This document shows, one piece after another, positions 634 to 44,394 of a DNA stretch of 64,000 nucleotides. Source of the DNA: Coptis chinensis (lineage: Eukaryota; Streptophyta; Magnoliopsida; Ranunculales; Ranunculaceae); NCBI GenBank assembly GCA_015680905.1, contig JADFTS010000046.1, forward strand, positions 1-64,000, given 5' to 3'. The notes below the pieces were generated by a model. That model had not been told where the DNA came from, made no database searches, and was given only the letters and a program-made list of their open reading frames with translations. How positions within the stretch are numbered: position 1 is the first letter of the stretch; the number at the start of each line of letters is the position of its first letter. Made by a program: the position numbers and the translations under genes.

Positions 634-1152
634 TGTAGGGGAGTGATATTCTCTATAAAGACGCCTTAATATAGGAACTAAGGCACCGAATTGCGATATA
701 TCAGTCGCGATCCACGAGCCAACAACGCCACAAGACGGTCGCACCATCACATTTAACTACATCAGGCAGTGACACATACTCCCTATCCATAAGCAATCAT
801 GACCGATTTGAGTACTTGCACTAATCCCGACTATCGATCATCGACACGGCCGCAAGCTACTTGCTCGACCATTATCCCTCACATCATCATCAGCAGACCT
901 ATGTAGATATTTCTCACATGCTCCCCATGATCCACACCCCACGCCAGTGATATCCTACACGCGGAGGGTGAGGATACACTCGAATCTATAAATACCACTC
1001 CCTATGAACTACGCCCGGACTGATTCTACTCGAGCCCAAATTTTGAGCAAGATCGTAGGCGATTCGCTCCAAAAAGAACTCCGGTCTCACCCATTTATTC
1101 ATATCGGTCCCCGAGGATCGTTTGTAGAGGAATAACACACCACACCTTTACA
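634..1152 (+). repeat. 5' LTR of element 1
   Basis: This 519-bp LTR starts TGTAGGGGAGTG and ends CACACCTTTACA. It matches 12173-12693 end to end. A TATA-like TATAAATA at 987-994 is the probable U3 promoter and is also in the 3' LTR at 12525-12532. Most differences between the two LTRs are 1-3 bp indels rather than substitutions. Confidence 0.93.
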
Positions 1153-1559
1153 TTGGCCCTCGTGGTCTCGATTATTTGAGAAGCCAAACCACCTTTACAC
1201 TAATCATTAGCAAAACCAAACCCGTAAAGATTCTCAAGCCCACGGCTATGGCAAGCCTCGGCTCAATTCAACTCTTTGGGCCGGCCGCCTAGGAACCATG
1301 AACGAACAAATTGCATTAACTCGGGCAAAAAAACGCCACCTTACGCGTGCCTGAAGTAGATACCAAAGCCCACTTAGCTGGCACTGACGACGACGCGCTA
1401 TCAACGCCGGTCCAACAAATCACCGAAAGCTAAATCAAAGGCTCGACAAGAATGCGGTCAAGAAAGATTCCACTCAAATAGTGCGAAAATGCCAAAACCT
1501 ATCGCTTCCATTCGCCGTAAAGTCCTTCATAAGGTCTCGCTCGGACTTCGTCCGACCCA

Positions 1560-2110
1560 CGCTTTCAGATGACGGTCGTATTCGGCCAGCGCCAAAGATA
1601 TAGCACGATATGCTTCAAAGCTTTCGCTCTACTGGTAAGGCCAGAGTTCGACCATCTCCAGCTGCAGACTCTTTCCAAACAAAATTTAAAGGACGCCCAC
1701 TCGACCGGTTTTTCTCCTCGAGCGGAGCTCCATACGAAGCTTCAACAAATTTCACCGAATTGCTCAGCGAACCAAGATGCGTAATAACGACGAAGGGGTG
1801 ATCTCAATTCACTCTTCCACCACTCTGGGCGAGGAAACCCATACCCTTCTGCTTCGGCTCAAAACGAGCTCTTTGGACATGGAAAGCGGCCTCGAGGAAT
1901 CATTTGCCGCGTAAAGGCTTTCATTAATCGCCGCTCCCCGCAACACCGCCTCACTAGGTCGCTCTTAAAAGACCAACCCGACACGTTGGTCGAGCCAGAT
2001 GCGCGAAAGTGGATAAATACATCAAGCCGCAAGAGGCTTTGTTAAAGCGTAAGCGGAAGCGGGGAAGCGGCAGCTGAAGAGAGGAAGAAGTTTACGGTCG
2101 TATCATCATC
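1560..2110 (+). pseudogene. gag remnant of element 1
   Basis: Frame is broken throughout. Near 2008-2045 the + strand reads a short KYI-containing stretch followed by an acidic/alanine segment and a basic tail. This resembles the end of plant Tat gag capsid domains (consensus like RADKYIN-EEA). The upstream part fits gag only by position and weak similarity. Exact ends are unknown. Confidence 0.4.
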
Positions 2111-2719
2111 TAGGAAACGACCACGACAACAAGGGCAACCCTCCAGACCCAAACCAAGAAATGATCGGGAATTCGCCGTGCTCACCAGATCTCCTAGTCA
2201 CATACTAGAAAAGATCAAAGCTGCATTCTACTGCCGGAGATACGATGACGGCCCCGGTGACGCCCGGATCGACCCATACTTCGCTTTCATCAACAAAATT
2301 GCCATGAGAGACCGGCGTCTGCGGGGGCTCAAGCATTACTTCTAAGACTCCGGTCGGTCGGCACATCAAACAGTACACTAACATCCCTGACGGCGACCTG
2401 CGCCACAAACTCATGGCCCGCAAGATTCGAAGCAGGTCCCCACCAAGAAGGAGCGCTCCGAGGTCTCACAGTCGCCATACCGAGGGCGCCCCCGAACAGC
2501 GCCTATCCGTGATCATCGCCAGTCAGCCCGTAAGACGCCGCGAGCACGCATGAACCATCCACATGATCACTTCCAAGACGATTCCGCTCTCAAGTTCACG
2601 CGAAAAGCTGGCGCGACGAGTTCTTCATGAAGTATACAATTTCTCTTCACAAGCCGCTGCCCATGCGCGCCGCTGATTCCGGGAAGAAGAACGGAGATAT
2701 CACCTTCCGGTGGTCGACC

Positions 2720-3160
2720 CTCAACAAGGTCCGCCTCCGCATGCTGATAACGATGCACTCGTGGTCCACGTCAAAATCGATGACCGGACCGTCAAAGCGA
2801 AGTTTTGATCGACCGTAGTAGCTCGTCGATATTTTGTTCTATCACACGATCCAGGAGATGAACTTACCAAAGTCGGTCTTCATAATTCCCATTGACCCCT
2901 CTTTCGATTCAACGGCTCGAGAGCCGATCTGATAGGAGACATCATCCTCCCGTCGGTGGGATCCCTGAAGACAAAGTCGAAAACTTCAACACGCGGCCGG
3001 TCCTAGATACCAAGTCGGTCCTACAACGCCATTCTAGGACGACGTTGGATACATCGATGCGAGGCATTACCATCCACGGCGCATCGTCATCCGTTTTCCT
3101 GCCCAGTGGGAATGATGGAACTTCAAGCAACCACCGAAGCCCGTCATTGTAACCAAATCA
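2720..3160 (+). pseudogene. Retropepsin-like protease remnant of element 1
   Basis: Around 2740-2880 the translation reads DALVVHVKID, then VLID followed by a serine run and VDILF. This is the active-site region of Tat-type aspartic proteases (family pattern VLIDTGSSADILF), here with a changed active-site triplet. Near 3020-3070 a YNAILGRRW-like motif in another frame marks the protease end. The fragments lie in different frames, so no intact enzyme is encoded. Confidence 0.6.
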
Positions 3161-3699
3161 TTGTCGCAACCAAGGCGAGGAACCTCCCATCTCGGAAACT
3201 TAACCTACCAACTACACTGGCCAAGGATTTAGTGGTTTGAGGTGAGCCCTTGCCAAAAAAGCGATGACGCGGGAGCTCCGGAAGAAGAGTTTTCTACCAC
3301 CCGACCCGATCTCAACCACTACCAAAGCACTTGGCATATCGGCGGTTCAAATCCTGATCGCCCATTAGGCGACATCACGAACAAGCATGACCTCGTCTAC
3401 CACCACCACCTCCCCCAACCCGGTGAGAATGTCGAACTACCCGGTTCTGTTGTCACGCCAACAAAGAACCAGCCGACCTTTTGTCGTAACCACGACCGGA
3501 CGTCCGGTTCCTCTCGACTCATCGGCTTCCGGCAACACACCAAGATGTAGCCTGCATTTCATCAGCCCGAGCGCATTTCGAGCCAAAATTTACTCAAGAC
3601 AAGCGAAGAAGTGAACCTCCGGAACCGAAGGCGACCCTAAACTTCGTCTATGTGGGAGCCAACCTAGACCCCACACTTAAAGAACTCAACTTGTAAACT

Positions 3700-4480
3700 T
3701 TCGTCCATGAATAAAGATGTGTTCGCAGTGGGTATATTGATGTGCACGGTATAGACCCTAGTGTCGCATGCCACCGGTTAAACGTCGACCCCGGTGCCAA
3801 ACCGGTTCGACAACGCCCTAGCGATTGTCACTACGCTTTCAAAAGCAATCAACGGCCAGGTAGATAAGCTCAAAAAAAGTCGGTTTCATCCGCAAGGTCG
3901 ACTACCTAATGGATCGCCAACATAGTGGCGGTCCAGAAAAAGAATGGCACCGTCCGTTTGTGGCGCGTCGACCGCAACGTCAATCAAGAAACTCGAAAAG
4001 ACGGCTTCCCCTACCAAGAATCGACCGGCTAGTCGACCCGGACTTGTGGAGGCACGAAATGCTATCATTCATGGGCGCGTAGATAAGCGGGTACAATCGA
4101 GATACCACTAGCCAAGAAGATCGAGGAAGACATCATTCATCACCCGAACAAGGAACTTCTTTGTTACAACGTCTTCCCATTCCGGACTAAAGAACGGGGG
4201 CGACCTTATCGTGACTAGTAACTAACATGTTCCAGGACATGTTAGGGGGATACCATGGAGGTTACATTGACGACATGGTTGTCAAAAAAGCAAAAAGCGA
4301 CCGACCACCTCACCTCGAGCAAAGCGTTCTCCGGACTACGACGAACCTGAATGAAACCGAACCCGAGAAGTGTCTTTTTGGTGCGTCCTCGGAAAAAATT
4401 TCTCGGATGCTCGGTCTCGCGAACGAGGTATAGAAGCAAATCCAGACGAATTCGGTTCATCGACATGCCGACCCTCAAAC
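3700..4480 (+). pseudogene. Reverse transcriptase remnant of element 1
   Basis: HRLNVDPGAKPV at about 3775-3810 matches the entry segment of gypsy RT (family HKLNVDP-KPV). At 4227-4433 the catalytic YxDD box is read as YIDDMVV, followed by HLE and the PEKCLFG segment that precedes the RT thumb. Motif order is correct, but the frame changes several times, so the element is not expected to make RT from this sequence. Confidence 0.75.
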
Positions 4481-4599
4481 AAAGAAACAGATACAAAAGT
4501 TGTCGTATGGTCGTGTTGACTCAACCGATTCATATCCGAGCATCGGACAAGTCGCCAGCCATTCTTACAAATACTCAAAAGGCGAGCAATTCTCATGGA

Positions 4600-5440
4600 A
4601 CGATCACGATGCCGCAAGCATTAAGCCACCTCAAAGAGTACCTCCTGACACCTCCGTCCTCGCTAAACCAACCGACGGAGAAACTCGGGGCTCTATCCGG
4701 GCGATCCGATTTCATTTATCGGTTCGGTCTGTTCAAGGATCGAACCACAATCGAAAAAGGCCGATCTACTTCCAAAGCAAGACACTTTCCACCGGTAGAA
4801 GAACTACTCTTATATAGAAAGAGCGGTCCTTGCTTTGTTATACTTCGGCAAGAAAATTCAGACCAGATTTCCGGGCTCATCCAATCAAAGTGCGAGCGAT
4901 CTCCCTTTGAAGAGGATTCTTCACAAAGACAACAAGACTACCGGGATGGCAATATGGGCGTAAGAGTCGGGGCGAACACCATATGGACTTCGTCCAAAGC
5001 ATATCCGCGGAAGGGTCCGGTCGTTCGCGGACTTCCTAGCGGATTTCCCATTGACGACCCTAATGGGAGGTCGAAGCGAGAGGTCGGTCGCAAGAAAGGA
5101 GCACGCAAAACGATCTGGTCCCTACGTCGATGGTTCCAAAGAACCACGGAGGCGCTGGTATGGGAATCGCCCTAGTCTCCCCGAGGAGCTATGGTAGAGA
5201 AGGCGATTCGGATAGACTTCGCAACGTCAAACAACGGCGAGTACGGCACTAATAATGGGAATCGCTACGCGATCCAAATTCGGAGTAAAGGAGATCCAAA
5301 TCTTTAGTGACTCATGAATCGGTCGTTCGCCCGGAGTTGCAAAAAGAGTACACTACCGTGGAAGGTAACCTCTCTAAATACCTTCAGTTGTTAACAATTT
5401 GCTTCCGCCATTTAGCGAGCGCGTCGATACACCATTTTTT
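4600..5440 (+). pseudogene. RT connection and RNase H remnant of element 1
   Basis: LKEYLLTPPSSL at about 4629-4664 matches the connection segment between RT and RNase H. At 5110-5290 another frame gives YVDG-like sequence, then GGAGMGIALVSP, then an ATSNN-EYG stretch. These are typical of the RNase H fold of plant gypsy elements. A 274-codon open stretch covers 4351-5175, but it mixes the true frame with out-of-frame segments. Confidence 0.65.
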
Positions 5441-5779
5441 GCGTGGCGAGAACCGTCCGCCACGCGGATAGCTTGGCATATCTAGCTACCCGGACGCGGT
5501 GCGGTCCCCGACAACCGATTATCGGCGAAGTCGACCGACACGCACCTGGCAAGGGACCAAGTCTTGACAATTAGCGACTGGTCCCACTCTGCAAGATCGA
5601 CGAAGTCACTCATGGATGCGACCTATTATACAAGATACATCCGGACGCGGCACACTCAGGAGCGCACCAAGGCCAAGAAGGTTCCACACCAAACGCGTGC
5701 TATTGTTTGGTGAACGACAAGTTATTCCGCGAAATCCGCAGCGGACCTCATCATCGAGATGTATCGACCCGAGCAAGGC

Positions 5780-6540
5780 GGCTAATTTTTCTTTGAAATT
5801 CACGGAGGAGAATCGGCAACCATGCCGGCCTCATTAGCCCACAAAGCGATCTCCCGAGGGTACTTCCGCCTCGTATGCGAGATCCATGCTAAAGCGTATG
5901 TCCTCAAATGTATCAAATGCCAAACATTTGGTCACAACATCATCTGAACCAAATTTCGCGGAATCGATTAACATTGCGAGTCCTCGCCGTTCCACATGTG
6001 GGGCATGGACATTATGGGACCATTCATCCTCGAGAGAGCACCGGCTTCCGGCTTTGTCCTAAATCGCCGCGACTACTTCACTAAGTGGGTTGGCAATTCC
6101 GTTAAGCGCCGCGTCCAAAGAATCACATGTCGGAAATTTCATTTGGACTCATCTCTAAATCACCCGGTTTGGCTCTACCACATACATGGTGATGGATAAT
6201 GGCTCCAGTTCAAGGGCAAAAGCAGGTCAAAGAGTTTCGCCAAATGGAAGATCGCTTCATGCATTCTCTACACCCCACAAGACGCGACAAAAGTAATGGA
6301 CAAGCAGAGGCCCGCGAATAAGGCCATTCCGAGAATTTGAAAAGAAAATTGAAAAGAACAAAAGCCGCGGGCTCCAATTTGGAGAACATACTGGGCTCAT
6401 CGCCTTCTACAAATACTCAAGCACCGGGCGAAGTCACCATTCTCCTATGCTATGGGTACGTAGCCGCCATACCCACCGAAATGACAATCCGACAACCCGA
6501 TCAACTTGTCGAACAGCGGGCCTATCTTTTTCTCGAATCT
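5780..6540 (+). pseudogene. Integrase remnant of element 1
   Basis: The catalytic core entry is read at 5996-6090 as MWGMDIMGPF and then DYFTKWV, the classic gypsy integrase block. Upstream, around 5880-5950, KCIKCQTFGH-type residues fit the HHCC zinc-binding domain. The C-terminal part around 6420-6540 contains a YGYVAAIPTEM stretch matching the family YG-EAVIPVE motif. Its last codons merge into the first unit of the tandem repeat. Several frameshifts are present. Confidence 0.75.
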
Positions 6541-7332
6541 CGCTAAGTTGGGGGCATATACTTTTCGAATCAACTAAGCGAGAACGCGAACGGGCGAAGC
6601 ATAACTCGGGGGGCTAAACACGCCATCATATCGCGGGGCGCCTCGAGGAGCTTACACAGGCTCAACGCTTCTCGTCTCGCTATAAGTTGAGGACCTATAA
6701 TTTCTGGATCAACTAAGCGGAAACGCCTTCACCGAGCGTAACGCCCTCCGGGGGGCTAAACACGCCATACGCCGCCGGGGCGCCTCGAGAGCTTACGGGG
6801 CTCAACGCCCGAAGTCTCGCTAAGTTGAGGACCTATACTTCTAGGATCAACTAAGCGAAACCTTCAGAGCTAACGCCGGGGCGGCTAACACGGGGCTATA
6901 CGCTGCGGGGCGCCTCGGGAGCTTACGGGCTCAACGCTTTCTCGAAGTCTCGCTAAGTTGAGGACCTATACTTCTAGGATCAACTAAGGTGAACGCCTCC
7001 GGGAGCGAAACGCCCTCGAGGGGGCTAAACACGCCATACGCAGGACGCCTTCTCGAGGAGCTTACGGGGCTCAACGCCTCTCCGAATCTCGCTAAGTTGG
7101 GGGCATATACTTTTCGAATCAACTAAGCGAGAACGCTCTCAGGAGCAGAACGCCCTCAGGTGCTAAACACGCGCTCATACGCGCAGGACGCTCTCAGGAG
7201 CTCATAGGCTCATCGCCTCCCCGAGTCTCCCTAAGCTGCGGGCATCCCACTTTTTCGACTCAACTAAGCGAGAACGCTCCCAGTGAGCACCATAGCCCAC
7301 GAACTCACAGGGGCAAAGCCCCCTTGTCGTCC
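6541..7332 (+). repeat. Tandem repeat, about 140-bp units, 5 full plus 1 partial
   Basis: Units start at 6541, 6678, 6818, 6951, 7090 and 7229, giving lengths 137, 140, 133, 139 and 139. Each opens with CGCTAAGTTG (the last, partial unit is altered here), then a short ATATACTT-like stretch and ATCAACTAAG. Each also carries the gene-like word GGCTAAACACGC. The array starts exactly where integrase ends. Tandem repeats in the 3' untranslated part of Tat-lineage elements are known and can seed satellite DNA. Confidence 0.9.
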
Positions 7333-10300
7333 TAAACGATCAAACGCTCACACAGCGTATTCCCATACATTATCATAGCAGCACAACATGTAGCAAGAAT
7401 ACATTTCGTAATCCAAAACATATACAAGATTAATCCGATCCGCAAAGCACCGACTGGTGGGTCTACCCGTAAAATCCAGTCGGCTACCGAATCGCGAAAT
7501 ACCAAAGGACCGAATCGCCACTTGAGTGGAAACCAGTTCTCCAAAATCAAAAGAAGCGAATCGCCGGGCAAGCCCGAAAATGCAAAATCTTAATGTTTAA
7601 CCCTCATAGGGGCAAGAAAACACACGATCAAAACAGACAAATCAAAAGCCGATCCTCACCAATAAACAAAATCAAGATCACGGTGCGACCACATGTTTAT
7701 CCTCGAACAAATACCGGGTTGAGGGAACATATCCGAAGCTCGCGAGCAACAACACGATACCGGGCCTCTTGAAAGCACCATCCGCTTCTTCACCGACAAT
7801 ATTTCGTCCAAATTTTGGCATACTCACTCAGTAAAGGCGGTGGTATACGCTGCGTTACGAGCCTTTACGAGCAACCTCCTCCGCATTGCTTCGCGTACTC
7901 GGTCACCTCCGTGATCTCCATTTGCAAGTCAACAACAGACGCAGCAAGTTTTTCATTTTCGTCAGCAGCAGCACGACACTTAGCCGACATAGCTTCCAAA
8001 TTTCCTCTTATGCGCTGCCGGATTTCATCCATCCCAGTACTCGACTTCGGGCATCAACATCGCGAGCAGAGCCGCGTTACAACGCTCTTCAAATTATCAT
8101 AACCAGCAAGAAACTGCAAGCACGAAAGTACAATGAACATCAATCAGAGAGAACGACTGAGAAATTAACAAACAGCGTACTCACCAAACAGCTCGCCATG
8201 TCCATAGTCCCCAGGAGCGTGTCCATATCTTCGTCCTCAACCTCCGCTTTGTCCCCGCCCCAAAGACGATGCCCCTCGAAGATCGGTCGCTTATAGCGCA
8301 GAGTGGAAGCCGCAGTCGACGCTTTTACAAAGACGCTTCTTCCCCGACCTCCCGACGAAGAACTTCGCCCCCCGCGTCCCCAACGTGGAGAGCGAGAACT
8401 CCCACTAGCGACGTGGCCCCTTGCTCCAATCGCCCATCCGTTCAAGAACCCGGGGGGGCCGCCCTCGATGGGGCTTAATCACCACCACACTTCCAGTTGG
8501 TTCGCCCGACCTCCGGCCGTTTAGCTTTGGACCCGCTACTCTTGCCTTCCTCTTGCCACGGCCGGCCGTGCACATGTGGATGAAATTCCATCTCCTCCAT
8601 CGCCAGAGGAGAGCTCTCTTTTAACGCCTTCTCCCACACCAAAAGCGAATAACGAGCCATATGAATGCGGCTAAAGCAAAAAGAGCAAATCGAGGAGGCA
8701 AATGAGGAAGAGATAACACCTTTACAATGATCAAAAGAGAGAGAACCACCATACCCGAAGATGACCACCAAAAGCAAACACGTTAAAAGCGGGTGAAGAT
8801 AAAGCAAAGAATAGAAATCCAAATGCCATCGCTCTCCCGAGCGCTTTATTTATACAAAAGAAACGCCTCTTCCCGAGGCGACTCATTAAGGCATCGAGGC
8901 CGCCAAACGCCAATCCAACCGCAACCATCATTTCATATTTCGCGAAATCGTTTCATCTCCGCGCGACACGCGGGCACGCGATCGAAATGGAAGTGACCAT
9001 TGCTCACAGGGCGCTTCCAAAATGCACTAATACTTGAAGTTACTAGAGGACGCTTACCCCGCCTACACGCATAAACCGCTCAGATCGACCAAGTCGACCA
9101 ACCTGGGCATACAAATCAAACACACATACAATATGCAAGAGCTTAAAAACAAATGGATAACAACATAGCATTAATATAAAACAATTAGCAACCACGAAGA
9201 CCACAAATCGAAGTCGCCAGATAAGCAGAGTCTTTGGGTCTACCCAAAATCCAAACAGTTAAAACATCGATTATCATAAGCACGCATTAAAGAAAAGACG
9301 AAAGACCTGGTAACCCCGAAAACAGCCCTATTGTTTTAGGCGGAGGCCGCTTACAAATGCAAAAACGCATCCTTCAACTTTCAAACAACATCTTCAAAGC
9401 CTTCAACCGTAGGGGACGCCCAAAGACTTGGGAAATGTTCCGGATCACCAGAGACGCCCATATCGCTTCGGGGCTTAAGCGTCCCACCCGCATCGCTAAC
9501 GCACGGAGGTTGATCCGCGAACCACTTCACCAGGAGCAAGAACGACCGGCAGAACCAAAGACGACCGACCTCGAGCGAAGTCGACTGCCGATCTATTGCG
9601 TCCTCGAAATGGGTTCCTCCGGCAGTCGCCATACCTCGCCTCCAGTTCTTCTATTTCAAAGACGGATGGCAAGATAGGCCGCCGCCTCCATTGCGGTAGC
9701 TTTACAACGGCAACGAAATGATTAGCAAAGAATGTCTTCTTCTTCACCATCGACCTCATGTCTCACCAAATTTCGCTTTCGTTCACGGCCGACGTCCTCT
9801 CCGAGAGACAGAGAACTAACCATTGTTTCTTCCAGATCCAAATCCACCTTCTCCGATTGAGATATCGCTTCCGGAGATCGGAGATCTCGAGCCTCGCGGA
9901 CTCAACCTCCGACTTCCATCTCGGCCAAACAAGGCAGTTGTCTTCAATTTCTCGATACCCGCAACCATCCGGCAGCGGCAGCCATTATAGTACCACAAAC
10001 ACACGATAAGCAACGATTAACAATAAGGGGATAGCACAAGCGCATAATAACACTACCACTTTACCGGCAAATCGCCTTTATCCACTCGGGCTCGATTCGA
10101 CTCTAGTTCCTTGGAGTCAAGGTCCTTCCTATCACCATCAAGCGTCATCCCTTCCAACAAGCAAGCGGCTATGGGTGCAGACTTGTAGCTGCAGTCTGAC
10201 CTCTTCACATAGCGCTTCTTCCCAGTTACTTCTTCCACATACATCGTCATACCCAAATTGGTCCTTTCCGGTCTGGGCGGCCCCTTACCGCGTCTCCGGA

Positions 10301-11720
10301 GCCAACCTTCCCTTCATCTTGCCCGAGGCATCTCCAACCACCCGGGTCGAATGACCTCCGGGCAACCTCCGAGGGCGCCCCTCGGCTAGAACGGCGAAGT
10401 CGCATCGGCCTGACGACCTCGGGTTGCATGAGTCGCCAGCTCCCTCCCATTCGCACCTCACCACCCCGCATGCGATTCGGGCCACCCTCGCAGCCTTTAG
10501 CGGTGTCGGTACTCCGAAACATCGAAGGAACGCCCTCAACGCCGGAAGGAGCATCCTCCGACCCATGCCCGACCTGCACCGAGGCCCCAAAGACTTCGGG
10601 GGTCGCTTCACCCCAAGACGGACCCCGGTTTCTATCCTCCCCGGTCACCAAATCACTTCCACGCTTCCATAACACGTGACTTTGACGCTCCCTTACCACG
10701 AGCCCTACTTTTTTCGAAGCTTCTCTTCTTTCCGAACGACGACAGTCCTCCACGCCCTTAAAGAACTTCGGGCGACCTCCGGCAACTTGGCGATTTTCGT
10801 CGTCCGAAATCGTCACCGAAATAATCTCTCGATCACCGCTTTCGGTTAGATACAAAATGCGGTATCCAGTACAAACGACAAAACAACAAATGTTCGATCA
10901 AGACAAAATCAATCGATATCAAATAAAACCTAAGAAAGCGTCATCGGTACCCACCAGGTGAAATCACACGCTTTCACGTCCACACCAACTCCGCCGCGAT
11001 GAGTTACCGACTAGCGAGAACGGTCTTTTATCCCAAGACTTCGTTACTTTCACTCCATCCGTAACGGGCGCAGTAGCTTCGGGTTTGCAAGCTAAAATTG
11101 TATGCCCTAGATCGCTTCAAGGTGAAGTGCTCAATAATATCAGCGACTTCGATCTGGTATTCACCGCTGGCGTTCAACAGGTCGAACACCTTTAACAACC
11201 GCCAGGTGTTACCCACGAACTGCACAGGCGCTTTGCCACAGCGGTTCAAAAATTGACAAACCAACTTCGAAAAGGGTATCGTCATGTGGGCCCTCAAATG
11301 CCCAGACGATCACCCCCCGCGGTGCGATTGGGGCATCTATCGCTAAAGACCAGGGGCTTCCGGTCGGGGCTCGTGGATCTCCGGACTTCTACGGTTATAC
11401 CATATCTTTTCCTCGATATGGAAACGCCTCAAGGCGTGTTTATCCACAGACTAAAGCGGCTACTTCGCGAAGCCGACCTCACCGCCACGTCGCCGTGCCA
11501 ACGTCGGAACACGTATGCATCGAGCATCGCGCTTCTTCACTCTTCACTTCAAATTTCATCCCTATCTTCCTCACCCAAATTTACCACCGGTGATTCATCC
11601 GCTCTCCTCCTCCTCTTCCCAACCAAGGAAACTTCACGACTTCGTGCGAACGAGTGTCATCGAATCCGACATTCTTCTCCTCTAAACGTAACAAACCTAG
11701 CTACCGGTATCTAACAGAGC
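7333..11720 (-). pseudogene. Antisense extra ORF region of element 1 (gypsy-type putative transposase-like)
   Basis: The - strand, opposite to pol, carries protein-like segments over about 4.4 kb. The clearest is 11028-11297, with IPFSKLVCQFLNRCGKAPVQ followed by FVGNTWRLLKVFDLL. It resembles the plant protein domain called 'putative gypsy type transposon' (PF04195), whose core pattern is P-F---VL---GLAPSQL-PN-WR-L. Further - strand open stretches are 10247-10855 (about 200 codons, Arg/Gly/Ser rich) and 8475-8822. Frame is broken between them. Extra ORFs, sometimes antisense, have been described for Tat elements. Their function is unknown and the name 'transposase' is historical. Confidence 0.55.
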
Positions 11721-12162
11721 ACCCTAACTACTCTAGCACGGAAGCTTAACACTAAACAAGGGAAACGGGTTCAAAATGGCGTAAAAAACTAACCCGAGGG
11801 GTTGATCGCTTAATGAAGTTCTCTACCAAACGGTAGCCAAATGAAGCCTCGACCAAGCAAGTAAGATTTTTGAACAACCGCCCTCAATTTCAAAGGCATT
11901 ATGATTACACCGTAGCCTCTAGCCCCCACGACTTCCAAGTAATCGCCTTTGTCTTTTCACATCCCAAAAACGGGCTTCACGTTCCTTTGTCGCGAATCGC
12001 CAGATCCCGCCACGTCGTCGCATTAGCGTCCACACGATCACATCTAACCAACTTACGCTTAGCAGCACTAGTCGTTTCTACAATCGATCGTGGGCGATCC
12101 CCAACTATCACATAGTACGCTGCGTGTTACCGTTCTCTCAAAGGTCGTTTTTTCAACCTACT

Positions 12163-12172
12163 AAGAGGGTCG
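12163..12172 (+). other. Candidate polypurine tract of element 1
   Basis: The purine-rich AAGAGGG lies immediately before the 3' LTR, where plus-strand DNA synthesis is primed. It is short and followed by TCG, so the call is weak. Confidence 0.35.
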
Positions 12173-12693
12173 TGTAGGGGAGTGATATTCTCTATACAAA
12201 GACGCTTTTAGCAGTGGAACTAAGGCACCGACTGCGGATATCGTCGCATCCACGAGCCAACAACGCCCCACAAGACGACGCACACCATCACACGAACTAC
12301 ATCAGCGGTGACACATACTCCTATCCATAAGCAATCATGACCGACGGAGTAATTTGCACTAATCGACTATCGATCACATCGATCACGCCGCAAGTTACTT
12401 GCTCGTGATCACCTCCTCATCATCACAAAGGACCTATGTAGATATTTCTCACATGCTCCCATGATCCACACCCCACGCCAGTGATATCCTCTACACGTGG
12501 AGGGTGAGGATACACTCGAATCTCTATAAATACCACTCCTATGAACTACGCCAGACTCACGATTCTACTCTCGAGCCCAAAATTTCAAAGATCGTGGCAG
12601 TTAAGCTCCCAAAAAGCGAACTCGGTCTCACCCATTTATTCATATCAGTCCCCAGAGACTGTTTGTAGAGGAATAACACACCACACCTTTACA
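12173..12693 (+). repeat. 3' LTR of element 1
   Basis: This 521-bp partner of 634-1152 has the same TG...CA ends and a TATAAATA at 12525-12532. It is followed directly by AGTAA. Confidence 0.93.
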
Positions 12694-13296: not shown

Positions 13297-13515
13297 CATG
13301 TTAGAATAAGGTAAATTAGCTAGGAAGTTATGCAAAACACAAAGAAATACTTCTTAGACTTGCAAAACAAAATTAAATACTTCTTAGACTTCTGATAGTT
13401 GGTTTCAAACAGCACAAATCAAATAGATTAACAGAGCTTCACAAATCACATTTGATTAAATTCGAATAATCATAGCTCATACAAAACATCAAAGAGCTAA
13501 GTGGCCAAGGATGGA

Positions 13516-14144
13516 TTAGCCGGTGCCACCAAGGACACCCTTAAGCTTCCTCACTTGAGCATCATCAAGGAAAGTAGTTTTCACAACAATTTCAGTAGGC
13601 AAGTCATTGGCAAAAAAGGCGTAATCAGTGAGTTGGAGGCCAGGACTTGGACTGCTGAAGGTAACAGTGGCAATTGCAAGAGACCCACCACCATTCAGCT
13701 GGAAATGTAATAAACCTTGAGGAAAAATCATGACGTCCCCCTTCTTAAGTGTTTTAAGAAAAACAGTATTAGCTGAATCCACAAAGCCAGCAAATATAGT
13801 ACCCTGTAAATGACAAGTAGAAGTTCGTTTCCAGCTGGGTGAGTGTGAAATGGGATAACACCACCGGGGGCAATGTCTAAGCGTCCAATTGAGATTCCAA
13901 GGCCATTCAAGCCAGGGAACTGGGAAACGAATGCTGGAGTAACGGCGGCCTTAATAAGGTTTGTGGTGTTCCCAGCCACAGCTAACCCCGAAAACACGAA
14001 GTCATCTACAGTGACATTAGTCTTACAATTGTATCCTGCAGGGCTTGTAGGGCCCTTGAGGTCTCCAACACAGTAGTCTGCTGCATTAACACTGTAGGAG
14101 AGGAGAAGGGCAAAGAGGAAAAGAGTTATATGGAACATCTTCAT
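13516..14144 (-). pseudogene. Germin-like protein (ABP19/20 type), copy 1, frameshifted
   Basis: Same product as the intact copy at 20238-20864. Start, signal peptide and the first cupin box (H-T-H and the Glu ligand) are in frame. After the LLLVI stretch, two extra bases (GTAAATG here, GTATG in copy 3, near 13808) shift the frame. Translation then runs into an unrelated tail. The downstream half is still readable in its own frame and ends LGGTG-stop. The span is 629 bp against 627 in the intact copy. A C-to-F change is also present just after the indel (ATATTTGC instead of ATATGTGC). TATATATA lies at 14209-14216. Either a decaying copy or a sequence error. Confidence 0.85.
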
Positions 14145-14208
14145 TTCGCTAGTACGAGAGAGGTTTCTTTGAATTGGGTTGGTCTTAGTGAGATTGCTAC
14201 CATTTACT

Positions 14209-14216
14209 TATATATA
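14209..14216 (-). promoter_or_regulatory. TATA box of germin-like copy 1
   Basis: TATATATA, about 65 bp upstream of the ATG. The same element at the same distance precedes copies 2 and 3. Confidence 0.6.
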
Positions 14217-15440
14217 GGGAGGCAGGATGCTTGCTGGCTGGTCCAATAGACCCTGCACCATGCAAGAGAAGAGATCCCGAGCAAGGTTAGCTTGACAGAG
14301 CACGTAAGAAAAGACATAAAATTTATTTGTGGTCCATGTAGTCTTATAAATCAATTCTCCATACAGACAAAAAAGCCTTTTCTAAGTGGAAAGGAAATGT
14401 TTTTTACTTTTCTCTACAATAATAGGATACTATCATTTCTTTCCTGACAAATTTTTTTTGCTTAACTACTTCAGAGTATATCTTCCCTTTCAAAAAAAAA
14501 TGTGGAGGAGCTAGCAGTAAAGTGTTGCAATTGGATTCCCCATTATATTTATATCATTAATGTTGAACCTTAGAGAAAATATCATCTCTCTCAATTCAGG
14601 CGTTTCAGCTAGTGCAACTCTTTAACTAAAGAAAAAGCTCATTAACCATACTCTTTGCTGGAAACAATGTTAACGATTAAAGTAAATGTAGAACAATTTT
14701 AAGGCGTGCAAATGTGCAATACTATAAGATAATGCATGCTGATTTTCATGACAATCATCTACACTAGAAAATTGCACTGTAGCCGATTAGCCGCTAAAGA
14801 AGAAATAAATCAACAACAAATGTACTGTGACGTTTGATAACAGCTGGAATGCAACCCAAATATACCTTTTAAGGAAGTTCATAATACATAGTTTTACTTC
14901 TTAATTTAAGATTCATCCATGATATAAGTTCTTCACAAAAGATTCTAATAACAGCTGCTCTTACAGCTTTACCCTTAATTAATCAACTATTTTCAGAATA
15001 AGATAACGAACTTACCTGCAATGAAGTTTCAGAATGTTCCCAAAGGCAAACAATCAGAAAATTCGATTAGGTGGTCCGTTACTCGTGCACATGGAAGAGG
15101 CCATAAGAAGACATCTCTTAACAGCTAAAAAGGTGTCACTGCAAGTCTTCCTGCCACTTCAAAGGATAACCATATGAAGTGTGTGGATTGTAATGGTTCC
15201 CTCCCTCGGAGGGTTCATGGATTATATTGATCCATAAGCTGTTTTCCAACTTGTTTGCATTGTACGCGCATACCATCAGCTCAGACAATGTCAGCTCGTA
15301 TTTCACAATATCAGTTAGACAGTTACATGAGTGAGCTTTGTACGAATCCAAGTAATATGCTCTCTATTCACTCTCATGAGCCTCGATTCTCCTGGTCAAT
15401 TTCATTGGATCGATTAGAGACACGTTGTCGTCCAATTTTA

Positions 15441-16277
15441 AGGTATTATTTATGAAGGATTGTTTTATTATTTAAATTGGTCGAGTCTGAACAAAATTTC
15501 ACTGGGATTGTGTTGGAGCCATTATGGAACACATATCCCCGTATTGGTTGGTTCAAAAGAGAGGTCTTTTTATAAATAGGAAAGGCATTGTTACGCAAAA
15601 TATTTTGGTGGCATGTTCATTTGACTTGCAGTTTCAGTATGTACTTGCTAGTTAGGAAGGTTCTGCCACAGATTCACGTATTTTGACTTTGGCATTAACA
15701 AGAGCAGACAAATTACATGTACCAAAAGGTATATTACACTTATATTTGTTTATCATTGAATATAGATTTTCTTTCAAAGCTAACAAATAGTTTTTTTGCT
15801 TTCCTAATTAATATAGGTAAATATTATGGTGTGGATGCCGGGTATGCCAATACACTAAGTTTTATTGCTCCATTTCGTGGCACTCGCTATCACTTGAAAG
15901 AATATGGTGTCTTGGAACCTACAAATAGCAAAGAATTGTTCAATCTGCGACATTCATCGTTGAGGAATGATGTCGAGGGTATCATTGGTATCTTAAAGAA
16001 GTGTTTTCCTATTTTGACCCTTCCTCTTCCATATCCATTTGAAACACAATTGAAGATAGTAATAGCATGTTGCATTCTACACAATCACATACGAAGAGAG
16101 AAAAACGTATGATTTACTTTTTAACTTGGAAGATTTTGAAGGCCAACAAGAATCTGAAGTAGTGCATAACAATGGGGGTGTGGAAAATATTAGTAGAGAA
16201 AGAATACGAGAAATGGCAATAGAGTTTAGAAAATCAATTGCTGATGCAATGTGGAGTGACTATGAAAGTTCAAAATG
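15441..16277 (+). pseudogene. PIF/Harbinger transposase (HARBI1-like) fragment, copy A
   Basis: The C-terminal part of a DDE_Tnp_4 transposase. The conserved order is visible: SFDLQFQYVLA (first Asp), a GT-AG intron at 15729-15816, GKYYGVDAGY (second Asp), FRGTRYHLKEYG, FNLRHSSLRNDVEG (catalytic Glu), and CCILHNHIRRE. An in-frame TAG at 15653-15655 replaces the Trp codon of the usual AGWEGSA motif. A run of five A near 16106 (four in copy B) shifts the frame just after HIRRE. The N-terminal half is missing or eroded. It cannot encode a working transposase. The fragment sits inside the duplicated unit and travelled with it. Confidence 0.85.
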
Positions 16278-16879
16278 ATGTAGTACTTATGGAATTTTCT
16301 TTTTAATTTATTTGTTTAATATATATGAAGAATGTAATAGTGATACTTATTTTGAATGACTTATATAAGTGCTTTTACTTGTTTAGATTTATATTTATTT
16401 TAACTTTTCTTATTTTGTGCATTTCATTTCATATTTATTTGAAGTATACACGTAAAATGAAGAAAGAATAACTTACTGCTAATATGTTGTTCATGACAAA
16501 CAAATTGCAGTGTCAACCAAACACAGGACAAGTTAAAACCGTGACAAAATAATTGAAGACCAAACAGCTTTCAGATTAATCATCTTTATGTAATATATCT
16601 GCAGAATTGGAACACCTAATCAGTGTTGAGCAATACAAAATCTTCTGCGGCCAAACAGAGCCTTCATGTTGGAATAAGGTAAATAATTAGCTAGGAAGTC
16701 ATGCAAAACACAAAGAAATACTTCTTAGACTTGCAAAACAAAATTAAATACTTCTTAGACTTCTGATAGTTGGTTTCGAACAGCACAGATTAACAGAGCT
16801 TCACAAATCACATTTGATTAAATTCTCGAATAATCATAGCTCATACAAAACATCAAAGAGCTAAGTGGCCAAGGATGGA

Positions 16880-17505
16880 TTAGCCGGTGCCACCAAGGAC
16901 ACCCTTAAGCTTCCTCACTTGAGCATCATCAAGGAAAGTAGTTTTCACAACAATTTCAGTAGGCAAGTCATTGGCAAAAAAGGCGTAATCAGTGAGTTGG
17001 AGGCCAGGACTTGGACTGCTGAAGGTAACAGTGGCAATTGCAAGAGACCCACCACCATTCAGCTGGAAATGTAATAAACCTTGAGGAAAAATCATGACGT
17101 CCCCCTTCTTAAGTGTTTTAAGAAAAACAGTATTAGCTGAATCCACAAAGCCAGCACATATAGTACCCTGTATGACAAGTAGAAGTTCGTTTCCAGCTGG
17201 GTGAGTGTGAAATGGGATAACACCACCGGGGCAATGTCTAAGCGTCCAATTGAGATTCCAAGGCCATTCAAGCCAGGGAACTGGGAAACGAATGCTGGAG
17301 TAACGGCGGCCTTAATAAGGTTTGTGGTGTTCCCAGCCACAGCTAACCCCGAAAACACGAAGTCATCTACAGTGACATTAGTCTTACAATTGTATCCTGC
17401 AGGGCTTGTAGGGCCCTTGAGGTCTCCAACACAGTAGTCTGCTGCATTAACAGTGTAGGAGAAGAGAAGGGCAAAGAGGAAAAGAGTTATATGGAACATC
17501 TTCAT
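16880..17505 (-). pseudogene. Germin-like protein (ABP19/20 type), copy 2, frameshifted by one base
   Basis: Nearly identical to copy 3 except that CCACCGGGGGCAATG has four G instead of five near 17228. This breaks the frame at the Gly-Gly just before the metal-binding H-T-H box. The span is 626 bp against 627. All residues of both cupin boxes are still encoded in the restored frames. Because the only disabling change is one base in a homopolymer of a long near-identical repeat, a consensus error is as likely as a real null allele. TATATATA lies at 17570-17577. Confidence 0.85.
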
Positions 17506-17569
17506 TTCACTAGTACGAGAGAAGTTTCTTTGAATTGGGTTGGTCTTAGTGAGATTGCTACCATTTACT

Positions 17570-17577
17570 TATATATA
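17570..17577 (-). promoter_or_regulatory. TATA box of germin-like copy 2
   Basis: TATATATA, about 65 bp upstream of the ATG, as in the other two copies. Confidence 0.6.
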
Positions 17578-18800
17578 GGGAGGTAGGATGCTTGCTGGCT
17601 GGTCCAATAGGCCCTGCACCATGCAAGAGATCACGAGCAAGGTTAGCTTGACAGACAGACAGAGTACGTAAGAAAAGACATAAAATTTATTTGTGGTCCA
17701 TGTAGTCTTAAAAATCAATTCTCCATTCAGACAAAAGCCTTTTCTAAGTGGAAACGAAATGTTTTTTACTTTTCTCTACAATAATGATACTATCATTTCT
17801 TTCCTGACAAATTTTTTTTGCTTAACTACTTCAGAGTATATCTTCCCTTTCAAAAAAAAATGTGGAGGAGCTAGCAGTAAAGTGTTGCAATTGGATTCCC
17901 CATTATATTTATATCATTAATGTTGAACCTTAGAGAAAATATCATCTCTCTCAATTCAGGCGTTTCAGCTAGTGCAACTCTTTAACTAAAGAAAAAGCTC
18001 ATTAACCATACTCTTTGCTGGAAACAATGTTAACGATTAAAGTAAATGTAGAACAATTTTAAGGCGTGCAAATGTGCAATACTATAAGATAATGCATGCT
18101 GATTTTCATGACAATCATCTACACTAGAAAATTGCACTGTAGCCGATTAGCCGCTAAAGAAGAAATAAATCAACAACAAATGTACTGTGACGTTTGATAA
18201 CAGCTGGAATGCAACCCAAATATACCTTTTAAGGAAGTTCATAATACATAGTTTTACTTCTTAATTTAAGATTCATCCATGATATAAGTTCTTCACAAAA
18301 GATTCTAATAACAGCTGCTCTTACAGCTTTACCCTTAATTAATCAACTATTTTCAGAATAAGATAACGAACTTACCTGCAATGAAGTTTCAGAATGTTCC
18401 CAAAGGCAAACAATCAGAAAATTCGATTAGGTGGTCCGTTACTCGTGCACATGGAAGAGGCCATAAGAAGACATCTCTTAACAGCTAAAAAGGTGTCACT
18501 GCAAGTCTTCCTGCCACTTCAAAGGATAACCATATGAAGTGTGTGGATTGTAATGGTTCCCTCCCTCGGAGGGTTCATGGATTATATTGATCCATAAGCT
18601 GTTTTCCAACTTGTTTGCATTGTACGCGCATACCATCAGCTCAGACAATGTCAGCTCGTATTTCACAATATCAGTTAGACAGTTACATGAGTGAGCTTTG
18701 TACGAATCCAAGTAATATGCTCTCTATTCACTCTCATGAGCCTCGATTCTCCTGGTCAATTTCATTGGATCGATTAGAGACACGTTGTCGTCCAATTTTA

Positions 18801-19637
18801 AGGTATTATTTATGAAGGATTGTTTTATTATTTAAATTGGTCGAGTCTGAACAAAATTTCACTGGGATTGTGTTGGAGCCATTATGGAACACATATCCCC
18901 GTATTGGTTGGTTCAAAAGAGAGGTCTTTTTATAAATAGGAAAGGCATTGTTACGCAAAATATTTTGGTGGCATGTTCATTTGACTTGCAGTTTCAGTAT
19001 GTACTTGCTAGTTAGGAAGGTTCTGCCACAGATTCACGTATTTTGACTTTGGCATTAACAAGAGCAGACAAATTACATGTACCAAAAGGTATATTACACT
19101 TATATTTGTTTATCATTGAATATAGATTTTCTTTCAAAGCTAACAAATAGTTTTTTTGCTTTCCTAATTAATATAGGTAAATATTATGGTGTGGATGCCG
19201 GGTATGCCAATACACTAAGTTTTATTGCTCCATTTCGTGGCACTCGCTATCACTTGAAAGAATATGGTGTCTTGGAACCTACAAATAGCAAAGAATTGTT
19301 CAATCTGCGACATTCATCGTTGAGGAATGATGTCGAGGGTATCATTGGTATCTTAAAGAAGTGTTTTCCTATTTTGACCCTTCCTCTTCCATATCCATTT
19401 GAAACACAATTGAAGATAGTAATAGCATGTTGCATTCTACACAATCACATACGAAGAGAGAAAACGTATGATTTACTTTTTAACTTGGAAGATTTTGAAG
19501 GCCAACAAGAATCTGAAGTAGTGCATAACAATGGGGGTGTGGAAAATATTAGTAGAGAAAGAATACGAGAAATGGCAATAGAGTTTAGAAAATCAATTGC
19601 TGATGCAATGTGGAGTGACTATGAAAGTTCAAAATGA
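18801..19637 (+). pseudogene. PIF/Harbinger transposase (HARBI1-like) fragment, copy B
   Basis: Duplicate of 15441-16277. The stop that replaces the Trp codon is shared (19013-19015), so it predates the duplication. The intron is at 19089-19176. Without the extra A of copy A, the C-terminal part stays open from 19177 to a stop at 19635-19637, through an acidic segment to MWSDYESSK. The N-terminal DNA-binding half is absent. Confidence 0.85.
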
Positions 19638-20237
19638 TGTAGTACTTATGGAATTTTCTTTTAATTTATTTGTTTAATATATATGAAGAATGTAATAGTG
19701 ATACTTATTTTGAATGACTTATATAAGTGCTTTTACTTGTTTAGATTTATATTTATTTTAACTTTTCTTATTTTGTGCATTTCATTTCATATTTATTTGA
19801 AGTATACACGTAAAATGAAGAAAGAATAACTTACTGCTAATATGTTGTTCATGACAAACAAATTGCAGTGTCAACCAAACACAGGACAAGTTAAAACCGT
19901 GACAAAATAATTGAAGACCAAACAGCTTTCAGATTAATCATCTTTATGTAATATATCTGCAGAATTGGAACACCTAATCAGTGTTGAGCAATACAAAATC
20001 TTCTGCGGCCAAACAGAGCCTTCATGTTGGAATAAGGTAAATAATTAGCTAGGAAGTCATGCAAAACACAAAGAAATACTTCTTAGACTTGCAAAACAAA
20101 ATTAAATACTTCTTAGACTTCTGATAGTTGGTTTCGAACAGCACAGATTAACAGAGCTTCACAAATCACATTTGATTAAATTCTCGAATAATCATAGCTC
20201 ATACAAAACATCAAAGAGCTAAGTGGCCAAGGATGGA

Positions 20238-20864
20238 TTAGCCGGTGCCACCAAGGACACCCTTAAGCTTCCTCACTTGAGCATCATCAAGGAAAGTAGT
20301 TTTCACAACAATTTCAGTAGGCAAGTCATTGGCAAAAAAGGCGTAATCAGTGAGTTGGAGGCCAGGACTTGGACTGCTGAAGGTAACAGTGGCAATTGCA
20401 AGAGACCCACCACCATTCAGCTGGAAATGTAATAAACCTTGAGGAAAAATCATGACGTCCCCCTTCTTAAGTGTTTTAAGAAAAACAGTATTAGCTGAAT
20501 CCACAAAGCCAGCACATATAGTACCCTGTATGACAAGTAGAAGTTCGTTTCCAGCTGGGTGAGTGTGAAATGGGATAACACCACCGGGGGCAATGTCTAA
20601 GCGTCCAATTGAGATTCCAAGGCCATTCAAGCCAGGGAACTGGGAAACGAATGCTGGAGTAACGGCGGCCTTAATAAGGTTTGTGGTGTTCCCAGCCACA
20701 GCTAACCCCGAAAACACGAAGTCATCTACAGTGACATTAGTCTTACAATTGTATCCTGCAGGGCTTGTAGGGCCCTTGAGGTCTCCAACACAGTAGTCTG
20801 CTGCATTAACAGTGTAGGAGAAGAGAAGGGCAAAGAGGAAAAGAGTTATATGGAACATCTTCAT
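20238..20864 (-). CDS. Germin-like protein, ABP19/ABP20 (auxin-binding germin) type, intact
   Basis: A single-exon 208-residue cupin protein, the usual length of the family. Germin-like proteins are secreted, Mn-binding, hexameric apoplast or cell-wall glycoproteins. Members have superoxide dismutase or other activities, and the ABP19/20 branch was found by auxin binding. Residues 1-21 form a signal peptide ending VNA. Cys25 and Cys40 form the expected disulfide. Possible N-glycosylation sites are Asn43 and Asn59. Cupin box 1 has His100, His102 and Glu107. Box 2 has His146 in [10 protein letters not shown]. All four metal ligands are present. The protein ends in the family's [13 protein letters not shown] at 20862-20864 is the first of two close Met codons. 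TATATATA lies at 20929-20936. It is the only uninterrupted copy of three. Whether it binds auxin is not shown by sequence. Confidence 0.95.
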
Positions 20865-20928
20865 TTCACTAGTACGAGAGAAGTTTCTTTGAATTGGGTT
20901 GGTCTTAGTGAGATTGCTACCATTTACT

Positions 20929-20936
20929 TATATATA
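20929..20936 (-). promoter_or_regulatory. TATA box of germin-like copy 3
   Basis: TATATATA on the gene's strand, about 65 bp before the ATG and conserved in all three copies. Confidence 0.65.
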
Positions 20937-22147
20937 GGGAGGTAGGATGCTTGCTGGCTGGTCCAATAGGCCCTGCACCATGCAAGAGATCACGAGCAAG
21001 GTTAGCTTGACAGACAGACAGAGTACGTAAGAAAAGACATAAAATTTATTTGTGGTCCATGTAGTCTTAAAAATCAATTCTCCATTCAGACAAAAGCCTT
21101 TTCTAAGTGGAAACGAAATGTTTTTTACTTTTCTCTACAATAATGATACTATCATTTCTTTCCTGACAAATTTTTTTGCTTAACCACTTCAGAGTACATC
21201 TTCCCTTTCAAAAAAAAATGTGGAGGAGCTAGCAGTAAAGTGTTGCAATTGGATTCCCCATTATATTTATATCATTAATGTTGAACCTTAGAGAAAATAT
21301 CATCTCTCTCAATTCAGGCGTTTCAGCTAGTGCAACTCTTTAACTAAAGAAAAAGCTCATTAACCATACTCTTTGCTGGAAACAATGTTAACGATTAAAC
21401 TAAATGTAGAACAATTTTAAGGCGTGCAAATGTGCAATACTATAAGATAATGCATGCTGATTTTCATGACAATCATCTACACTAGAAAATTGCACTGTAG
21501 CCGATTAGCCGCTAAAGAAGAAATAAATCAACAACAAATGTACTGTGACGTTTGATAACAGCTGGAATGCAACCCAAATATACCTTTTAAGGAAGTTCAT
21601 AATACACAGTGTTACTTCTTAATTTAAGATTCATCCATGATATCAGTTCTTCACAAAATATTCCAATAACAGCTGCTCTTACAGCTTTACCCTTAATTAA
21701 TCAACTATTTTCAGAATAAGATAACGAACTTACCTGCAATGAAGTTTCAGAATGTCCCAAAAGACAAACAATCAGAAAATTCGATTAGGTGGTCCGTTAC
21801 TCGTGCACATGGAAGAGGCCATAAGAAGACATCTCTTAACAGCTAAAAAGGTATCACTGCAAGTCTTCCTGCCACTTCAGAGGATAACCATATGAAGTGT
21901 GTGGATTGTAATGGTTCCCTCCTTCGTAGGGTTCATGGATTATATTGATCCATAAGCAGTTTTCCAACTTGTTTGCATCGTACACCCATACCATCAGCTC
22001 AGACAATGTCAGCTCGTATTTCACAATATCAGTTACATGAGTGAGCTTTGTACGAATCCAGTAATAAGCTCTCTATTCACTCTCATGAGCCTCGATTCTC
22101 CTAGTCAATTTCTTTGGATCGATTAGAGACACGTTGTCGTCCAATTT

Positions 22148-30310: not shown

Positions 30311-31070
30311 AGTTAATAGGGTAAGTTTATTTCCTTGTTTTATGTCCTTTAGCTATATCTGAATTTTATATTATTCTTGTTTATAGTCTTCTTATTGTTG
30401 GTTACATGCATCTCGATCCTGCTTAACTGTATGGCGCGACATTTGAGATTGTTTCATATCAAGATTGGATCTGAAGAAGATATAAATACCTTTTACGTAT
30501 TTAGTTTTTGTTACAACGAGGTGCTAAACAAATGTATGTGATCGGACGAGTTGGTTATATTGGGCCACATGACATTTTCAGTTCTAGAATTATTTCGGCG
30601 TCGTGGAGATCATTGGACAATTTAACTAAGTCAGGATTTCATACATTCTTATCAAAAAACAAAAGAAAAAGGATTTCATACATTGTCTAAGATAATAAAA
30701 GATCGAATACAATTTTCAAATTTTGAATGGTATATATGGTTTTTTGGCATGCCAAAACTTTCTGTAAGATAGTATTCTATTACAATTACGATTACTATGC
30801 AATTGATGAATTGATAGTTATAAGTGCTCTTTTCTTTAGTTCAAAGATATGAAAACAGGTTCGTGCATGACACTAGAGACATAATTTTGATTAGAACTTC
30901 ACCACTTTTTATTTACCCGGACAGAGCTGATTTATTGTTCTGATTCTTTTGGTACGTTGTTAATCATGGATGATTCCAATATGTGTATGAATGAAGATCT
31001 GATAGGTTCGTCTCATCTAGAATCAAGCAGTATACAATTGAAGTTGGTAAACTGATTGATGCATCTCGCC
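30311..31070. other. Upstream region of SAUR gene 1, no other gene seen
   Basis: About 760 bp without a recognisable coding region. It may hold promoter, 5' UTR and a leader intron, but no exon-intron structure can be fixed from sequence alone. Confidence 0.5.
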
Positions 31071-31947
31071 ATGGCTGAGGATGGGAACCCCAAATTGACT
31101 GGAATTCGGCAGATAATCCGGTTAAAGGAGATCCTCCAAAAGTGGCAGTCCGTAACACTTAGCCCAAAGAGTAACAGCCCGCCACACCAACATGAGAAAA
31201 CCCTTGCAGGCATCTCTCCAGCCATCAACAAACGCTTAAGAAATACATACATTGCTTGTGATTCTGATGAGGAGGGCTGTCCTAGCCCAGAACCACCACC
31301 AGATGTCCCAAAAGGATATCTGGCAGTGTATGTTGGGCCTGAGCTTCGGAGGTTTATTATTCCAACGAGCTATCTTAGCCATCATATGTTCAAAATGCTG
31401 TTAGAGAAGACTGAGGAGGAGTTTGGCTTCGACCACAAGGGTGCACTCACTATTCCTTGTGAGACCGAGACCTTCAAATATCTCATTAACTGGATGCAAT
31501 GCCACCCCAGTGTCGATATTCATCTTGAAGACGATCCTGGTAATCCCTCAACTTACACTTCAATTCTTTCTTTCTAAGTTAACTTCTAACAGAAGTATCA
31601 TGATGGTGTTGACAAATTGAATATGCTAATGGCCATGTTAATATATTTACATGATAAGTAAATGAAATGAAAACTAGTAAGACAGAAACTTAATGACACT
31701 TAGGATAGACTGGCTGAGGCTTATCAACGATATACTTCTGAGATGGCTTATCAGCAAAATTTAAAATCCATATCATTTTGACTCGAAGTTTTTGTATAGT
31801 TAGGATTATATTATTTCGTTTCGTGCGCACAACAAGACCATCTAATACTATTTTGACCGAGTTAATTAAGATTTTGTAGAAGAAGATGCTGAAGATGCAG
31901 AGGCAAAGCATGATGCAGAACAAAAACAGGACGACACAGAAGAATAA
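31071..31947 (+). CDS. SAUR-family auxin-responsive protein, long type, two exons
   Basis: Small auxin up RNA proteins act at the plasma membrane, where many inhibit PP2C.D phosphatases and so promote H+-ATPase activity and cell expansion. Proposed exons are 31071-31539 and 31871-31947 (intron 331 bp, GT...AG), giving 181 residues. The N-terminus has [19 protein letters not shown] (9-27), then a CDSDEE-PSPEPP linker. The SAUR domain is at about 78-145: [43 protein letters not shown]. The linker and N-terminus are those of the Arabidopsis At5g20810/At3g43120 group. Exon 2 adds an acidic tail ending DDTEE. Without splicing, the ORF stops at 31577, so exon 2 is an inference from frame and composition. 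ATG at 31071 is preferred over an in-frame ATG at 31059 because family members start close to the KLTG motif. Confidence 0.9.
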
Positions 31948-44390: not shown

Positions 44391-44394
44391 CCTC

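Follow-up and report, generated by a model that had tools for sequence, protein, structure and literature searches.

As a mechanism, unequal crossing over is ordinary and well known in plants. At the Femaleness (F) locus of cucumber it has altered the copy number of CsACS1/CsACS1G and, in the parts of that report used here, three-unit versions are described for the version 2.0 assembly of line Gy14 and, by quantitative PCR (qPCR), for line AM297 (PMC7072070). In part of a study of wheat chromosome 2D, a recombinant gene derived from a nucleotide-binding leucine-rich repeat (NLR) pair is described, its putative breakpoints having been located by alignment and a second genome serving for comparison (PMC6097286). 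Germin-like genes also form tandem clusters, and those of rice and Arabidopsis are reported to have expanded mainly via tandem duplication; the term "unequal" has no occurrence in the text of that report (PMC5085655). Our literature search for chimeric germin-like tandem genes made by unequal crossing over returned, judged by title, nothing on germin-like unequal crossover. Here, we describe a germin-like array of Coptis chinensis at positions 13297-22147 of the first 64,000 nucleotides of contig JADFTS010000046.1 (the window; positions are those of the window unless a contig is named). In our reading, to which we give a probability of about 70%, the middle one of its three units, unit B, is the product of a single, very recent unequal crossover (non-allelic homologous recombination) in a two-unit array.

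Like cucumber F, this locus is a tandem repeat in which an extra gene copy would have gained a recombinant distal promoter; unlike cucumber F, where a 30.2-kb unit was followed by fiber fluorescence in situ hybridization, qPCR and large populations, the unit here is 3.36 kb long and is known from sequence alone (PMC7072070). With the wheat NLR pair, whose copies are 96-98% alike, it shares a recombinant gene, breakpoints read from an alignment and comparison with a second sequence, whereas the wheat case, a 285-kb indel, is the reciprocal deletion product with one recombinant copy and ours is the duplication product (PMC6097286). Unlike the germin-like clusters of rice and Arabidopsis, in which single events are neither dated nor mapped in the parts of the source seen (PMC5085655), the event described here can be placed in both respects. 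The mechanism is ordinary, while the evidence for it is unusually clean and well resolved.

The array consists of three direct-orientation copies (A, B and C) of a 2.1-kb repeat, R, each with a minus-strand germin-like gene, and two copies (S1 and S2) of a 1.2-kb spacer, S, each of which lies between two units and holds a PIF/Harbinger-type transposase fragment. The array coordinates 13297-22147 given in an earlier note on this DNA, which had proposed that unit B is a chimera of C and A, proved correct, and the five diagnostic strings quoted there all occur where it had placed them; GTATATC occurs once more, at 33409. The parts of the array are as follows.

13297-15437, unit A, left copy of R; its germin-like gene is frameshifted by +AA at 13808
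15438-16663, spacer S1, with a PIF/Harbinger-type transposase fragment (the domain scan was done on the S2 copy)
16664-18797, unit B, chimeric, being C-type to the left of 17786 and A-type to the right of 17812/17827
17787-17826, exchange interval, in which A = B = C apart from a T8/T7 run; 17787-17811 if the run is trusted
18798-20021, spacer S2; against S1, 0 substitutions in 1,224 aligned bases and 2 one-base indels
20022-22147, unit C, right copy of R
14427-17786, duplicated period, copy 1 (right part of A, S1, left part of B); all three private homopolymer indels lie here
17787-21145, duplicated period, copy 2 (right part of B, S2, left part of C); same as the second contig, C91, at those three sites

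A base-by-base alignment of the three units, scored from A 13310 so that the first 13 bases of unit A are omitted, contains 49 variant events, of which 48 distinguish A from C. At these 48 variants unit B is C-type 22 times and then A-type 26 times, with one switch and no interleaving, in agreement with the chimera proposed earlier; interleaved A and C variants, the pattern that would speak against such a chimera, are not seen. Under random order a single switch has a chance of 7e-14, although any block exchange likewise clusters variants. C-type variants end in B with an AG deletion at 17785/17786; A-type ones start with the T8/T7 run at 17812, and A-type substitutions start at 17827. The switch therefore falls in a shared tract of 25-40 bp (17787-17811/17826), in line with the interval of about 30 bp suggested before, and this tract is in register in both parents and identical apart from the T-run. 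On either side of the switch the match to the parent is complete in substitutions: 0 of 1,123 between the left part of B and C, and 0 of 988 between the right parts of A and B, which are identical within the repeat. The homopolymer-length differences that the earlier note saw between the two right halves lie in the adjoining spacer, at 16101 and 16300. One difference on the left side had escaped the earlier note: the 49th event is a G-run private to B at 17227, with 4 G against 5 in A, C and both copies on C91, and it breaks the reading frame in B.

The exchange has a counterpart at the scale of the array. The period between exchange points is present twice and is equally diverged along its length, with 0 substitutions in 3,361 columns and three one-base homopolymer indels when 14427-17786 is compared with 17787-21145. 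Two of the indels, 16101 (+A) and 16300 (+T), are in S1, where S2 and the C91 spacer agree against S1; the third, 17227 (-G), sets B apart from A, C and the two C91 copies, which are alike there. A chimera, identical spacers and a continuous period, all expected from a single A-C unequal crossover, are accordingly found except at three one-base homopolymer positions, and a two-unit relative of the array is found as well. In our model, unit C of one chromatid would pair with unit A of an identical or near-identical chromatid, most simply the sister, and a crossover within the 25-40 bp that both share, some 300 bp before the start codon of the germin-like gene, would yield A-S-(C/A)-S-C, that is, a tandem duplication of the 3.36-kb period. 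We infer that this exchange occurred in the cell rather than in the assembler and that the partners were sister chromatids.

The two-unit relative lies in the same assembly (935.6 Mb, 116 contigs). The window is positions 1-64000 of a 67,888-bp contig (here C63), and the second contig, C91 (250,153 bp), carries two units, at 76418-78617 and 80105-82245, one A-like (A9) and one C-like (C9), in a place collinear with the C63 array; overall the two collinear contigs have diverged by about 1-2%. Outside C63 and C91, a search with a 1.5-kb query found no further copy of the repeat (5 of 5 candidates scored, by a search that skips very common words), and a 2-kb flank query gave full-length matches solely on C63 and C91 among 40 scored of 498 candidates; the other 42 listed flank matches are shorter pieces of 84-94% identity that resemble dispersed repeats. 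Counted from matches of at least 400 bases, C91 is collinear with C63 over 197-622, over 12694-38823 and then piecewise to 67888, with substitutions mostly at 0.55-2.4% and at 4.2% in the last piece; the counterpart of the window is C91:75409-118715. Most simply, C91 is the other haplotype.

A9 is closest to A (8 substitutions in 2,140) and C9 to C (6/2,124), while A9 and C9 differ from each other at 35 of 2,125 positions. Because C91 has an A-S-C array with A9 close to A and C9 close to C, the A and C types, and an array of two units, are most likely older than the separation of C63 and C91, judging from these alignments. C91 is nevertheless a relative of the parental array and not the parent itself, as its sequence differs from that of C63: the left part of B differs from C9 by 5 substitutions in 1,121 and the right part of B from A9 by 4 in 988. 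The spacer of C91 also has about 320 bp of extra sequence at C91:78617-79018 that is absent from S2 and, by eye, is in part similar to the window's first 100 bases, in the manner of a small dispersed element.

The order of events can be read from the five units together. In a five-way alignment (A, B, C, A9 and C9; the three events left of B 16666, at the left edge, omitted) with 48 A/C variants, the two units of C91 are divided in the same way at 36, which places the parental types before the duplication event, while C and A have 6 private variants each. B has all 6 of the C-private variants, which are on the left, none of the 4 left-hand A-private variants and both of the right-hand ones. 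Since B thus carries variants private to C63's own A and C, it was made from them and after the C63/C91 split. The events would then be ordered as A-C duplication, C63/C91 split and, in either order, the frameshift in A and the third unit. For the age of the third unit, the whole-spacer alignment to C91 shows 98 differences, but the extra sequence in the left part of the C91 spacer (sized from the ends of flanking matches) is misaligned, and only the right spacer part (27/1,075) was therefore used. At C63-C91 divergence, 36 substitutions (4 + 27 + 5) would be expected in 3,185 bases and none is seen, which suggests that the partners were sister chromatids or else near-identical homologs. At the 95% upper limit the duplication has diverged by under 8% of what separates C63 and C91 over the same stretch, a bound that needs no clock and is better than the date of under about 69,000 years, an order of magnitude only, that follows if 6.5e-9 substitutions per site and year are assumed.

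Several observations weigh against our reading. Copy 1 holds every one of the three private homopolymer indels, between 16101 and 17227, as a patched or poorly polished stretch would. The switch falls in a tract of only 25-40 bp despite longer A/C-identical tracts of 331, 282, 206 and 202 bp elsewhere in R. C63 is small, and compared with C91 its right end seems to be of poorer quality, gap events reaching 32 per kb at 65 kb; 13.0-15.5 and 18.9-22.9 kb show 0-3 gap events per kb and no one-base gaps, in a table that omits 15.5-18.9 kb, where the three indels sit. C91 itself might be a recent segmental duplicate rather than an allele. The main rival is a homotype false duplication, in which the true C63 haplotype is A-S-C and the assembler circled the repeat once more, writing the period twice from the same reads. 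Like the published homotype cases, which in the part of the source used here have a near-identical extra copy without heterozygous k-mers, our two copies are free of substitutions (PMC9516828). They differ solely by changes of the sequencing-error type (3/3), and by comparison indels make up only 12, and one-base indels 3, of the 48 differences between A and C, so that three of three is unlike accumulated mutation (chance 0.016 for any indel and 2e-4 for one-base indels, given the A-C spectrum). We take the three indels to be probable consensus errors, although a very recent real duplication would look alike. The two units of C91 and the small size and low-quality end of C63 suit a homotype duplication as well. 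Suggestive only, on the other side, are the unbroken seam, gaps between copies being one mark of same-scaffold false duplication in the part of that source consulted (PMC9516828), and the exact, in-register switch in so short a tract, when an overlap error is likelier in longer ones. Because the case rests on assembled sequence, we regard a same-haplotype duplication as a real possibility, if the less likely one; it is the part of the earlier note's artefact alternative that survives.

The other part of that alternative, mixing with the C91 haplotype, finds no support. A heterotype false duplication, with the other haplotype's allele joined into the contig as the third unit, would draw on the collinear second contig, by which the locus is present twice in the assembly, but B matches C63's own A and C without a substitution rather than A9 (4/988) or C9 (5/1,121), S2 shows no substitution against S1 and is without the additional stretch of the C91 spacer, and a third haplotype nearly identical to C63 would be needed to rescue the idea, which makes it very improbable. 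An older array of three units, altered by gene conversion or by repeated exchanges, is likewise very improbable: the few coding differences between A and C (3/36 substitutions, 4/47 of all events) would allow an earlier A-C exchange, whereas the unbroken identity through the right part of A, the spacer and the left part of C demands a 3.36-kb tract ending at exactly corresponding points, and C91 has two units. The evidence weighs strongly against both conversion in an older array and mixing of the C63 and C91 haplotypes by the assembler. An unequal crossover between two different homologous chromosomes would likewise yield A, C/A, C, yet it should leave differences of the haplotype level, some 36 where none is seen, and we hold it to be highly unlikely; a near-identical homolog, as in a selfed line, would fit the absence of substitutions. 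The unequal crossover between sister or near-identical chromatids accordingly remains our preferred reading.

The consequences for the genes depend on the reading frames, which are listed here with those of the spacers.

20238-20864, minus strand, germin-like gene of unit C; intact, 208 aa, Cupin_1
16880-17505, minus strand, germin-like gene of unit B, which is C-type in sequence; frame lost through the 4-G run at 17227
13516-14144, minus strand, germin-like gene of unit A; frame lost through +AA at 13808, which is not in B, C or the C91 copies
15717-16275, plus strand, transposase fragment in S1; frame lost through the extra A at 16101
19077-19637, plus strand, transposase fragment in S2; 186-aa open frame, DDE_Tnp_4, E 9.3e-11

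The protein of unit C is intact at 208 aa, with a Cupin_1 domain (PF00190, E 7.5e-35) and an alignment with oxalate oxidase 1fi2 (E 2.5e-34). Germin boxes supply metal ligands, and both occur once each in this protein, at residues 94 and 135, by patterns that we take to be the usual ones. Both C91 copies are open, with 208 aa each, while on C63 the frame is lost in A (+AA at 13808) and in B (the 4-G run) and is open in C; the +AA in unit A may also be an error of the consensus. Measured from the ATG of B at 17505, the exchange is some 281-322 bp upstream and a TATA-like site is found near -72, so that B combines C-type coding sequence and proximal promoter with an A-type distal promoter. We infer that this extra C-type gene could work only if the consensus is wrong at the 4-G run of B. 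If it is, the haplotype has gained a second working C-type copy, before or after the loss of A; if the run is real, the new B copy is itself broken.

A further feature of the array concerns an older exchange between A and C. In the coding part (13519-14144 against 20241-20864), A and C differ by 3 of the 36 substitutions where 10.6 are expected (P 0.002) and by 4 of 47 events when indels are included (P 5e-4), while the indels alone give no clear deficit (1/11, 3.2 expected, P 0.12). Substitutions were retested alone because selection purges indels from coding parts; a 629-bp window test (P 0.00035) used a width picked after the data had been seen. The C91 pair is alike, with 4 differences in 624 inside the coding part against 31 in 1,501 outside. 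Both coding substitutions upstream of A's frameshift change an amino acid and, albeit in small numbers, this means that protein selection alone leaves the scarcity of silent changes unexplained. An earlier A-C gene conversion is a fair guess from these counts, and it would fit a recombining array. As for the spacer, it seems to be a transposon fragment and not a complete Harbinger element: the inverted repeats found in it and its surroundings are 7 short pairs (12-24 nt, 71-92% complementary), none of which, in our reading, is placed as ends of a complete element would be.

The surrounding sequence contains two further large elements. At 634-12693 there is, in our own reading, a 12-kb long terminal repeat (LTR) element bounded by TG...CA and flanked by a 5-bp target duplication; C91 has the empty site, and the element should therefore be young, yet its LTRs (634-1152 and 12173-12693) are merely 85% alike. 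In a survey of this LTR family covering 7 paired elements (14 of 20 LTR loci, with 40 of 1,044 candidates scored), identity within elements, at 84.8-93.9% (mean 89.6), is barely above that between elements (mean 88.3%). Differences between LTRs concentrate at short hot spots close to CG (0.167 per base, compared with 0.058), CG being the strongest of the 16 dinucleotides and its value being reached by 0 of 499 shifts, without an excess of C-to-T/G-to-A changes (141) over the reverse (156). Our guess is that these are methylation-linked base-calling errors in repeats that could not be polished; if so, LTR dating in this assembly is unsafe. A second LTR element, recognized by outer repeats 89% alike, lies at 44072-53768 with a reverse transcriptase on the minus strand at 50265-51035; it falls within 43740-54026, where no C91 match of at least 400 bases is listed and where the C91 counterpart measures 2.1 kb. 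An AT-rich array of 55-bp tandem repeats at 40076-42569 lies in a 3.9-kb segment (38823-42772) whose collinear place in C91 is about 0.2 kb, and an open frame at 31056-31574 has an Auxin_inducible (SAUR-type) domain (E 5.9e-26). Beyond the window, C63 64163-67888 has 91.7% identity and 112 gap openings against C91, resembling a poorly covered, unpolished contig end. The window holds 0 N bases, and scans of it for Rfam families (gathering thresholds) and for tRNA genes gave 0 matches each.

Germin-like gene counts in this assembly need care. Five units sit on two collinear contigs, and because the locus is present twice, on C63 and on C91, counts would be inflated. It is tempting, though only tentatively, to see the three-unit form as a segregating and very young copy-number allele on one of two haplotypes, one that might have arisen in the last tenth or so of their separation and that might add a second working germin-like copy under a hybrid promoter to a chromosome on which A has been lost by frameshift. 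Single unequal crossovers are hard to discern in old arrays that later exchanges have overwritten, whereas this array shows its exchange point to within 40 bp, has a two-unit relative on another contig of the assembly and allows the succession of events to be followed. If reads confirm the third unit, the array would be a clean case for how new tandem genes begin.

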